Assembly: GCA_025451295.1 (NCBI GenBank)
Contig: JANWKQ010000100.1
Coordinates: 1 to 41,501, forward strand
From: Flavobacteriales bacterium
Lineage (GTDB): Bacteria > Bacteroidota > Bacteroidia > CAIKAF01
Direction: 5' to 3'
Length of the DNA: 41,501 nt
Below are positions 13,417 through 38,444 of the stretch, in pieces. How positions within the stretch are numbered: the first letter of the stretch is position 1; the number at the start of each line of letters is the position of its first letter. The notes under the pieces are model-generated. The model worked only from the letters and a program-made list of their open reading frames with translations. It had not been told where the DNA came from and ran no database searches. The translations under genes and the position numbers were made by a program.

Positions 13417-13420
13417 AGTA

Positions 13421-13449
13421 TAAATGTATAAATAAATCCTTATTTGCAA
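13421..13449 (-). promoter_or_regulatory. Near-consensus promoter 4 nt before the start of the T9SS gene
   Basis: On the minus strand TTG (13449-13447), 18-nt spacer, TACATTTA (13428-13421), then 4 nt and ATG. It has one mismatch in the -7 box and a spacer one base short of the usual 19-21. Confidence 0.45.
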
Positions 13450-13527: not shown

Positions 13528-15321
13528 CTACTGTTTCATAAATTTACGAACCGCTTCATTGTTGATGCGAAGGAAATAAATACCCGGAGGCAGTTGCTCA
13601 ACATTCAGCAAATGCATATTTCCCCAGTTAAATCCTGAAAGTATTTCGTGAATATGTAATCTTCCCAACGCATCGAATACTGACAAGGTGATATCTGTTG
13701 TTGGTTTTTCAATGAATTCTATTGTCAATAAACCGGTGGTTGGATTTGGAAAGAGATTAAACGTATTGGTGTTGTTTTCCACGGAGGAGTATCCGGAATT
13801 TCGTGACCAGTGATTTTCGGCATCTTTTACGATAAGTGTTGCACCTAAGGAATCCTGTGTGCTGATCTGCAGTTTGGGTGTATACCAGAACTGTGCAATC
13901 GAGCTATCAGGCATTAAATGCAGAATTCCATAACCATGATTGAAGAAATCGGTAAACTGATGTTGTGGATTGGCATTTCGATCTACATTGTTGATGAGAT
14001 CAAATGTGCCGAGGGGGGCTCCAGATTCGTCCATATTGCCACGCGATACGCTTGTTGGAAGAAACTCCACCCCAACTGATCCAAGTCCCGTATTAGGGTC
14101 ATACATGGAGATATTATTGGGATCCTCCACCAAGTCCTGTGCTATAGAAACATGAGCATCGCCACTGAGTACAATCGTATTATCGATAAAGCTGGTCCTT
14201 AGAAAATCAAAGAACAGGGCTTTGGTTCCGGGAAAACCATCCCATGAACCATCATCAAAAACAGGTCCGTTGTTGGGGATCATGGCCAAAACCCATGCTG
14301 GAATTCCCGTGGTGTACCAGCCCCCAATCATTCGTTGTTGTGGAACCAGTTTCCATTTGGCGGTTGAGTTCAATAATTGCTGGGTTAACCATTGAAATTG
14401 AGTATCCCCAAGCATATTGTATTCACCATTTGTCAATGTATCTCCATGACGGAACATCAGCGCATCCGTTACCATGATATCCGCCAGGTCACCATAGGAA
14501 AAACTACGGTAGATATTTAGCTGATTCGTGGTATCTGGCACACGTATGGGCATCCATTCAAGAAAAGCTTCATTACCGCCCTGATAAAAACAACTATAAT
14601 TTCCTCCACAATCCTGGTCGTGATTATCCCAAAGACAAATCCACGGAAGCATCGCCTTGGCTGCCCGAAGATCCGGATCCAGCAAATAATATTCATGACG
14701 GTCCCGCCAATCATGCAGGGTTACGGGATCACCGGGGTATGGACTCGGAACCCTTATCTGCTCTTCGGCATCCACAAAGTCATAAATATAATCACCAAGA
14801 TGGATGGCTGCATATAAGCTGTCGGACTTTTCGGATACACGGGCATACGCATTAAAGAAACCAGAGAAAACACTGCTGCAGGAAAACACCGCAAACTTCA
14901 GATCGGTTGTACTTCCGGTAGGGGCCGTCCGCGTTCTGCCATTTACACTATAATTTCCGCTCCCATTATCAAAACGATAATAGTAGATCGTGTTGGGGGA
15001 TAAACCGGTGACGTCTTTTTTGACCGTCCAATCAAACGAACTATCGGTGATCACTGAACCGGACGCCAAAACAGAAGAAAAGAGGCTATCCAAGGACAAC
15101 TCATAATTTACCGTTAACGGAGTAAAATCAGCGGGGGCAGGAGTAATTCTCGTCCAAATAATAACTGCATTTGATAACGGATCACCAGAGGCTACCCCAT
15201 GATAAAATGGGGCATGAGAACTATCTGCAAAGGTTCTTGGAGGATAGGTAATCTGCGCATCTGCATTGACAAATGCGAGCAATAGAAAACCACTCACGGT
15301 TATTTTTTTCAGGCGATGCAC
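13528..15321 (-). CDS. PhoD-like alkaline phosphatase/phosphodiesterase with T9SS sorting domain
   Basis: A 597-residue secreted metallophosphoesterase. A signal peptide (residues 1-22) is followed by a fibronectin-like N domain (HGVASGDPLSNAVIIWTRI, about 41-133) and the PhoD catalytic domain (FAVFSCSS, HLGDYIYD at 174-181, WDNHDQDCGG, VLSGDAHVS). A type A T9SS tail covers the last 80 residues (LFPNPTTGLLTIEF...LPPGIYFLRI...VRKFMKQ). PhoD enzymes release phosphate from mono- and diesters; the usual WDDHE motif reads WDNHD here. The only start that keeps the Lys-containing signal peptide n-region is GTG 15321; an in-frame stop lies just upstream. A full promoter ends 4 nt before this GTG, implying a leaderless transcript. 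Confidence 0.9.
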   Translation of the reverse strand: MHRLKKITVSGFLLLAFVNADAQITYPPRTFADSSHAPFYHGVASGDPLSNAVIIWTRITPAPADFTPLTVNYELSLDSLFSSVLASGSVITDSSFDWTVKKDVTGLSPNTIYYYRFDNGSGNYSVNGRTRTAPTGSTTDLKFAVFSCSSVFSGFFNAYARVSEKSDSLYAAIHLGDYIYDFVDAEEQIRVPSPYPGDPVTLHDWRDRHEYYLLDPDLRAAKAMLPWICLWDNHDQDCGGNYSCFYQGGNEAFLEWMPIRVPDTTNQLNIYRSFSYGDLADIMVTDALMFRHGDTLTNGEYNMLGDTQFQWLTQQLLNSTAKWKLVPQQRMIGGWYTTGIPAWVLAMIPNNGPVFDDGSWDGFPGTKALFFDFLRTSFIDNTIVLSGDAHVSIAQDLVEDPNNISMYDPNTGLGSVGVEFLPTSVSRGNMDESGAPLGTFDLINNVDRNANPQHQFTDFFNHGYGILHLMPDSSIAQFWYTPKLQISTQDSLGATLIVKDAENHWSRNSGYSSVENNTNTFNLFPNPTTGLLTIEFIEKPTTDITLSVFDALGRLHIHEILSGFNWGNMHLLNVEQLPPGIYFLRINNEAVRKFMKQ

Positions 15322-15325
15322 TCTT

Positions 15326-15356
15326 CAAATGTAAAAAATAAAGGATAGATAGACAA
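15326..15356 (-). promoter_or_regulatory. Consensus promoter immediately before the PhoD-like gene
   Basis: On the minus strand TTG (15356-15354), exactly 20 nt, TACATTTG (15333-15326), then 4 nt to the GTG start. It is a full match to the Bacteroidota -33/-7 pattern. The transcript would begin at or next to the start codon. Confidence 0.78.
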
Positions 15357-26821: not shown

Positions 26822-26975
26822 AGGGTGTATTTGTTTTAAATATAAAACTTTTTATAATACAAAGATCAGACCCAATGATCGAAATGGCCTTACATGGTTT
26901 TGGAACTTCGTTATATAATTCAAAGCCAGTATAAAACAGGTCAATACGCCGTGCTGAACAAATTTTCAGAAATAA

Positions 26976-27005
26976 TTGAAAGTTTAAAAGCAATCGCTAG
27001 TTTTG
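26976..27005 (+). promoter_or_regulatory. Consensus promoter 4 nt before the GbsR/MarR start
   Basis: TTG (26976-26978), exactly 19 nt, TAGTTTTG (26998-27005), then 4 nt (ACGT) and ATG 27010. It is a full -33/-7 consensus predicting a transcript that begins at the start codon. Confidence 0.78.
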
Positions 27006-27009
27006 ACGT

Positions 27010-27510
27010 ATGGAAACAAATCAGCACGTCGAAAAATTTTACCAGGCATGGGGCACCCTTGGCTCCAACTGGGGGATCAACAAAACCATGGCCCAGATAC
27101 ATGCCTTATTATTGATCAGCGAAAATTCCTTAACCACCGAGGATATTATGGAAAAACTGAACATTTCCAGGGGAAATACCAACATGAATTTAAGAGCGTT
27201 GATGGATTGGGGCCTGATTCAAAAAGAACATAAAAAGGGAGAAAGAAAAGAACATTTTGTTGCAGAAAAAGATATCTGGAAAGTGTCGCGTCTCATTGCC
27301 AGGGAACGTAGAAAAAGAGAATTAGAGCCAGCCTTAAAGATCCTGGAAGAGCTCAGGTCAATTAAAGACACAGATGCTGAATCGAAACGATTTAAAAAAC
27401 AAATTGATGAGGTTTATAAATTTACCTCGATGGTGGATTCGATCCTTGATAAGTTCATTAAAAGTAATACCAGCTGGATGATGAAAATTTTCGCCTACAT
27501 TGCCAAGTAA
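27010..27510 (+). CDS. GbsR/MarR family transcriptional regulator
   Basis: A 166-residue winged-helix regulator. The N terminus HVEKFYQAWGTLGSNWGINKTMAQIHALLLIS with the HTH SLTTEDIMEKLNISRGNTNMNLRAL (about residues 41-65), a wing (LIQKEHKKGERKEHFVAE, with the typical KGERKEHF) and the C-terminal coiled-coil dimer segment are all GbsR-like. Members repress osmolyte or envelope genes in other bacteria; the target here is unknown. The promoter ends 4 nt before the ATG, so the transcript should be leaderless. The CoA-transferase gene follows on the same strand after an unusual G+C-rich spacer. Confidence 0.88.
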   Translation: METNQHVEKFYQAWGTLGSNWGINKTMAQIHALLLISENSLTTEDIMEKLNISRGNTNMNLRALMDWGLIQKEHKKGERKEHFVAEKDIWKVSRLIARERRKRELEPALKILEELRSIKDTDAESKRFKKQIDEVYKFTSMVDSILDKFIKSNTSWMMKIFAYIAK

Positions 27511-27520
27511 CTTTTTCATT

Positions 27521-27631
27521 GTGCCATGGCTCTGAAGGGGTCGCAGCAGGAAGCATGGGGACCCTGAGTGGGAAAAGCTGATGCCATTGAGTCCGTCACT
27601 TCACCATCACGAAGGACGAGGGGGGCGCCCG
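27521..27631. repeat. G+C-rich intergenic spacer, candidate dispersed repeat
   Basis: The 110-nt stretch between the regulator and the CoA-transferase gene is visibly richer in G+C than its surroundings (it ends GGGGGGCGCCC). It contains a GGGTC/GACCC inverted pair (27538-27564). Read on the minus strand it has an open frame (APLVLRDGEVTDSMASAF...) that looks like part of a non-coding repeat seen in other Bacteroidota rather than a gene; that is a recollection and has not been searched. Confidence 0.4.
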
Positions 27632-27674
27632 AATGAAGAAAAATCACTACTTTCGGGCCTTCAATAACAAAACC

Positions 27675-37784: not shown

Positions 37785-38432
37785 TTAAAAAACAAGATCT
37801 GTTTTTACTTTTATTTCCATCGCTTCACCCGTTTTCGGATGCGTAAAGCCCAGTGAATAGGCCTGTAACATTATTTTACCTTCCAGTTCAATATTACTTC
37901 CATATAACTTATCGCCAACGATTGGATGACCAGCATGTCCCAGTTGAGCTCTGATCTGATGATACCTGCCGGTGATTAATTGGATCTCCAACAAGCTTTT
38001 TCCATTTTTTTCTTCCAGCACTGCATATCGGAGTGAGGATTGTTTAGAATCCGGTTGTGGCTCATCAAAGATCAATGCCTTTTTTTGTTTGGGATCTTTC
38101 AGCAGATAGTTTTCAATTTTCCCCATTTGGTTGGGCATCTGTCCTTCTACAACTCCCCGGTATATTTTATCCCAGCCCTCTTCCTGCATTTGTTGCTGGA
38201 GATCTTTGAGCATCGATAAAGTTTTAGCTAATATAATAACGCCATTAACAGGTCGATCGATCCGATGCACAATTCCCAAATAATGATTCCGATGATATTT
38301 CTCCAGATAATTTTGGGCCTCCTCTTCGAGGCTTGGGTGGCCAAAACGGTCACGTTCTACCTGCAATCCGGCAGGCTTGTCAACTACCAGAAGATCCTTG
38401 TCTTCGAAAAGAATGTGTTGTTCAATATTCAC
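37785..38432 (-). CDS. RluA-family pseudouridine synthase
   Basis: A 215-residue pseudouridine synthase converting uridines in rRNA or tRNA. It shows LVVDKPAGLQVERDRFG (15-31), the catalytic loop HRIDRPVNGVIILAKT (56-71, with D59) and LLEIQLITGRYHQIRAQLGHAGHPIVGD, all RluA hallmarks. There is no S4 domain, and it is shorter than RluC/D, closer in size to RluA-type enzymes. The start is GTG 38432-38430 because no ATG precedes the conserved strand. A full -7 box ends 4 nt before it, suggesting a leaderless mRNA. Confidence 0.9.
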   Translation of the reverse strand: MNIEQHILFEDKDLLVVDKPAGLQVERDRFGHPSLEEEAQNYLEKYHRNHYLGIVHRIDRPVNGVIILAKTLSMLKDLQQQMQEEGWDKIYRGVVEGQMPNQMGKIENYLLKDPKQKKALIFDEPQPDSKQSSLRYAVLEEKNGKSLLEIQLITGRYHQIRAQLGHAGHPIVGDKLYGSNIELEGKIMLQAYSLGFTHPKTGEAMEIKVKTDLVF

Positions 38433-38436
38433 CCGA

Positions 38437-38444
38437 CAAATATA
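38437..38444 (-). promoter_or_regulatory. -7 element 4 nt before the RluA-like start
   Basis: On the minus strand TATATTTG, a full match, then 4 nt and GTG 38432. The -33 position carries TTA (38466-38464) rather than TTG, with a spacer of 19 nt. Confidence 0.5.

Follow-up and report, generated by a model that had tools for sequence, protein, structure and literature searches.

Translation in Bacteroidota works without Shine-Dalgarno sequences. Regulators of the MarR/GbsR family are winged-helix proteins, for which a palindrome over the regulator's own promoter is the usual layout of self-repression, and leaderless repressor genes are exemplified by lambda cI and some TetR genes. For the phylum itself, the closest descriptions come from transcription start maps. 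In Flavobacterium johnsoniae, the −7 box lies 4–5 nt from the transcription start and follows the consensus TAHHTTTG, with G nearly absent from position 3 (PMC6847099); H at positions 3 and 4 is a preference of this species and not an absolute requirement. Leaderless mRNAs or very short leaders make up 5.5% of the 890 mapped mRNAs in Flavobacterium psychrophilum (PMC9723704), ~3.7% of the 5′ UTRs of Bacteroides thetaiotaomicron are under 10 nt (PMC7366714), and 13% in F. johnsoniae have leaders of 10 nt or less (PMC6847099). The preliminary description of the locus analysed here, which considered leaderless genes with a fixed box-to-start distance little described for Bacteroidota, was thus right only in part, because the maps of three species already report such minorities as well as the 4–5-nt spacing. 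Neither gbsR nor pyrE is named as leaderless in the consulted passages of the F. psychrophilum and B. thetaiotaomicron papers, and our literature search found no paper that mentions both GbsR and Flavobacterium. While this kind of gene start is known, what is new here is its sequence-level demonstration in the present lineage, its conservation among gbsR and pyrE orthologs, and a module combining operator, promoter and start codon.

The window, by which we mean the whole 41.5-kb stretch of Flavobacteriales DNA that was analysed (41,501 nt), contains a gene for a GbsR/MarR-family regulator. Read directly, its upstream sequence has TTG, 19 nt, TAGTTTTG, ACGT and ATG in succession (Table 1), exactly the TTG-19-box-4-ATG geometry originally described. 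TAGTTTTG matches TAnnTTTG, the −7 element of the Bacteroidota primary-sigma (sigma-ABfr type) promoters, and departs from TAHHTTTG by the G at position 3, which is uncommon but present in the sampled genomes (20 of the 227 boxes). The encoded protein scores above the curated Pfam cut-offs for a MarR-type winged helix (PF12802, 30.8 bits versus 27; PF01047, 27.1 versus 24.6), and its best NCBIfam hit, CudC (NF047500, the GbsR-type choline regulator), reaches 50.5 bits against a cut-off of 218 bits. By these profile scores the protein is GbsR-like but not the choline regulator.

Table 1. Promoter features at the gbsR/marR gene and at the companion genes of the window.
Feature	Position	Strand	Remarks
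Palindrome TTTCAGAAATAATTGAAA (TTTCA-N8-TGAAA), probable GbsR/MarR operator	26964..26981	+	In 57/62 box-bearing orthologs; extended site rare genome-wide
TTG, earlier called −33 element	26976..26978	+	Inside right arm of palindrome
−7 element TAGTTTTG, TAnnTTTG type	26998..27005	+	Orthologs align TACATTTG (G013), TAATTTTG (G011), TATATTTG and others
4-nt spacer ACGT	27006..27009	+	Transcription predicted to begin at the A of ATG or beside it; −7-to-start spacing 4–5 nt in F. johnsoniae (PMC6847099)
GbsR/MarR-family transcriptional regulator, 166 aa	27010..27510	+	Pfam MarR_2 E=3.4e-7; NCBIfam CudC E=2.1e-13, far below cut-off
TACATTTA + 4 nt before ATG (13416) of T9SS-sorted protein gene	13417..13428	-	Box with one mismatch
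TACATTTG + 4 nt before GTG (15321) of PhoD-like gene (13528-15321)	15322..15333	-	Perfect box
TATATTTG + 4 nt before GTG (38432) of RluA-like gene (37785-38432)	38433..38444	-	Perfect box

We consider it likely that this region is the autoregulated, leaderless promoter of the gbsR/marR gene itself, with the mRNA starting at the start codon. RNA polymerase carrying the Bacteroidota primary sigma factor would read TAGTTTTG as the −7 element and, because the published spacing is 4–5 nt and the box ends 4 nt before the ATG, transcription is predicted to begin with the A of the ATG; the gbsR message would then be leaderless and translated without a 5′ UTR. The palindrome TTTCA-N8-TGAAA covers the −33 region, where binding of a GbsR dimer is predicted to block the polymerase and so to repress the regulator's own gene. 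With autoregulated MarR/GbsR repressors the locus has the palindrome-over-promoter layout in common, to which it adds the predicted leaderless start. With lambda cI and some TetR genes it would share the combination of a self-regulating repressor and a leaderless message, although these belong to unrelated protein families and have sigma-70-type promoters. Within the phylum, the mapped primary-sigma promoters have the same −7 element, and their published 4–5-nt spacing explains the 4-nt rule (PMC6847099, PMC9723704, PMC7366714), whereas the window differs by the G at box position 3 and by an operator palindrome that overlaps the −33 region. Likewise, F. psychrophilum and B. thetaiotaomicron have a minority of genes whose transcription begins at the start codon or close to it; their figures are percentages from mapped starts, whereas here the class is known from sequence, in an uncultured lineage, and from ortholog conservation of gbsR and pyrE.

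Box-to-start distances were collected from the host genome assembly (3.41 Mb in 257 contigs, 78% complete), using 1.12 Mb of contig stretches chosen regardless of matches and excluding from the statistics the contigs picked for matches. Genes were called simply as the longest ORF from its first ATG, which left 606 starts preceded by an intergenic space of 40 nt or more. Here, TAnnTTTG ended 3, 4 and 5 nt before the ATG in 3, 11 and 6 cases, respectively, and never at 0–2 or 6 nt, with a separate, broad leadered peak at ~16–25 nt. Against these 20 boxes at 3–5 nt, 1000 column permutations and 1000 within-sequence shuffles gave 1.3 on average and never more than 6, and the best of 29 motifs made by rearranging the letters of TAnnTTTG gave 4; the 20 boxes constitute ~14% (20/144) of the canonical boxes that lie no more than 45 nt from a start. 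A same-genus genome (355 kb) has 2, 6 and 4 boxes at 3, 4 and 5 nt. Across 30 genomes of the class, searched independently of gene calls, TAYATTTG-Nx-ATGA yielded 58, 160, 87 and 72 matches at x = 2, 4, 6 and 12, compared to ~25–34 for each of the reversed-pattern controls. The proposal of a discrete leaderless class set by the −7-to-start distance, which hinged on a genome-wide excess at 4 nt, stands, since the genome-wide excess at 3–5 nt over shuffled controls is strong and peaks at 4 nt, and the class-wide counts show an excess as well. Its wording of a "fixed" distance holds as a narrow constraint but not as a single value, given the range of 3–5 nt and of up to 8 nt in some pyrE lineages. 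As far as it can be recognised by sequence, the leaderless class is real but a minority.

Besides gbsR, a 4-nt distance had been ascribed to PhoD-like, RluA-like and T9SS genes of the window, and all three were found in the sequence, the first two ahead of GTG. The PhoD-like counterpart in the same genus (G013) has the box, 4 nt and an ATG (L199:5047), which makes the GTG start of the window's PhoD-like gene credible. For the RluA-like gene, 5 of the 29 homologs show a box no more than 60 nt upstream, and in 3 of these it lies at 4 nt. GTG starts at 3–5 nt from a box numbered just one in the genome sample, and we rejected the idea that leaderless genes broadly include GTG starts; because of this rarity, the PhoD-like and RluA-like genes are exceptions, the former backed by its ortholog.

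Exact TAnnTTTG-N4-ATG occurs a single time in the window, against a chance expectation of ~1, and the match is thus not significant by itself; it gains significance because it sits at a gene start and is retained in close and distant orthologs. We read the upstream regions of 80 gbsR relatives from Flavobacteriales, Cytophagales and Chitinophagales, to which the window and G011 were added, and the layout recurs across the phylum. A box was present within 60 nt in 62 gbsR genes, ending 1 nt before the ATG in 1, at 3 nt in 5 and at 4 nt in 22, with none at 5–8 nt, so that 27 of the 62 have the box at 3–4 nt and the rest are mostly leadered (34 genes, box 9–44 nt before the ATG). Among cultured strains, gbsR is predicted to be leaderless in Tenacibaculum aiptasiae a4, Aureivirga marina, Chitinophaga cymbidii and Chitinophaga costaii, and leadered in Chryseobacterium oranimense and Chitinophaga eiseniae. 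Some orthologs, for instance in Saprospiraceae, have no canonical box, no palindrome, or neither. On a quick protein tree, at least 9 changes between the leaderless and leadered forms are needed, 6 of them forced by well-supported (starred) branches, and one change depends on the odd pair L145/L147. These repeated changes imply a recurrent gain or loss of the leaderless gbsR form, at almost the same spacing in every case, and, as more than half of the box-bearing orthologs are leadered, leaderlessness is not required for function.

Another leaderless gene from the sample, pyrE, was followed through its orthologs in 49 further genomes of this class. In the 40 orthologs with a box within 60 nt, the box lies exactly 4 nt before the ATG in 25 and at 4–8 nt in 36, and pyrE is apparently leaderless in most of the families sampled, as judged from these distances. 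Seven pyrE boxes carry G at position 3, one of them being TAGTTTTG at 4 nt (L317), identical to that of the window; the TAG form is thus probably usable. Many of the pyrE upstream regions (L228-L256, L317-L336) have in common a promoter that resembles AAAACTTTATACATTTG-N4-ATG. Among the remaining sampled genes, tatD is mixed (8/29 with a box, all at 4–7 nt), and tsaE was rejected as a conserved leaderless gene because no relative keeps the box geometry. With tatD partial and tsaE devoid of the pattern, conservation of the leaderless geometry is gene-specific.

The palindrome was searched as TTTCA-N8-TGAAA, the stricter TTTCAA-TTGAAA not matching the window copy. A gap of 16±1 nt separates its end from the −7 box in 54 of the 57 palindrome-bearing gbsR orthologs, leaderless and leadered alike, whereas the two Aureivirga species (L096 and L122) have a gap of 6 nt, which brings the palindrome 10 bp closer, by one helical turn. 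The intergenic nucleotide alignment of the window with same-genus G013 picks up again at 26956, immediately ahead of the palindrome. A second palindrome is present in 19 orthologous gbsR loci, mostly directly after gbsR, in front of a gene that encodes either a small membrane protein or a member of the epimerase family, and the extended site TTTCA-N8-TGAAAGTT occurs only twice in the 3.41-Mb genome. The second copies, the rarity of the extended site and the locked spacing fit an operator read by GbsR itself, and the conserved palindrome is most likely GbsR's own operator; as in the autorepressor layout, it lies over the gene's own promoter and is conserved together with gbsR. The TTG, initially taken for a −33 element, is indeed present at a spacing enriched genome-wide (N19-20 upstream of the box in 20 of the 118 leadered boxes, versus ~4 expected), but its reading as an independent element is not upheld, as it is part of the right arm of the palindrome. 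Because of this enrichment in other promoters, it may have a double role, serving as both operator arm and −33 contact; at N19 it is missing in the Aureivirga and L131 orthologs. We rejected an equivalence with the B. thetaiotaomicron motif PM2, which consists of elements at −10 and −30 and is linked to oxidative stress, no connection having been found.

Several further copies of the palindrome were noted. The sole other extended site in the genome (G000:C111:21498-21518, within L338, G000:C111:20000-23000) lies ~200 nt upstream of an ORF of at least 433 aa and is a possible second GbsR target. In G011 (L222 position 638, G011:C29), an extended palindrome is followed by TACATTTG and then by the gene for a 294-aa protein that, judged by eye, looks like a membrane fatty-acid desaturase. 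The second palindrome of Aureivirga (L096, L122) precedes an NAD-dependent epimerase-family gene. Compared with same-genus L093 (5501-7306), the window (27510-27633) is missing ~1.7 kb that would separate gbsR from the CoA-transferase gene, a segment that includes a 117-aa membrane protein gene with its own upstream palindrome copy; a relative of this protein was not found in the window's genome, the assembly of which is incomplete.

Alternatively, the box could be a coincidental match within AT-rich intergenic DNA, with the real promoter further upstream and an ordinary leader. Such a match would accord with the chance expectation for the window and with the less common TAG form, but the position of the box is kept in G013 (TACATTTG, 3 nt), G011 (TAATTTTG, 4 nt) and many distant orthologs, and no other TAnnTTTG lies within 250 nt upstream of gbsR, leaving this reading very improbable. 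Closer to the preferred one is a transcript that is not strictly leaderless, starting a few nucleotides up- or downstream and having a 1–4-nt leader or an internal start codon. The pyrE distances that reach 6–8 nt and the alternation of 3 and 4 nt in gbsR are compatible with it, whereas the peak at 4 nt, in gbsR as well as genome-wide, equals the mapped spacing, and the window gene has no in-frame ATG within the 25 codons after 27010; we regard it as rather unlikely.

It could also be that the promoter is leaderless while the palindrome is another regulator's site or an extended sigma contact. The general enrichment of TTG 19–20 nt upstream of the −7 box in leadered promoters means that part of the palindrome's conservation could reflect sigma contact. 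Against this, both arms are conserved and go together with gbsR genes, extended sites are very scarce in the genome, the Aureivirga palindrome is shifted by 10 bp relative to the box, and 19 loci have a second copy near or just after gbsR, so that we hold this reading to be unlikely. An autoregulated, leaderless gbsR promoter remains our preferred explanation, with the rarity of G at position 3 in mapped promoters, the leadered majority among gbsR genes and the orthologs without box or palindrome speaking against it.

These findings bear on how Bacteroidota, which translate without Shine-Dalgarno sequences, choose their start codons. Orthologs that keep one conserved promoter while switching between leaderless and leadered forms are matched pairs for testing the role of the leader. 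Moreover, the layout of the gbsR operator and box predicts a specific regulon for this uncharacterised regulator, which occurs in many genera of Bacteroidota, among them the cultured Tenacibaculum, Aureivirga, Chitinophaga and Chryseobacterium. More speculatively, and with considerable doubt on our part, leaderless starts in Bacteroidota might be a selected, gene-specific state, in which gbsR, pyrE and other genes would stay leaderless in much of the class because they have to be translated differently from ordinary leadered mRNAs, by ribosomes that make no use of Shine-Dalgarno pairing.
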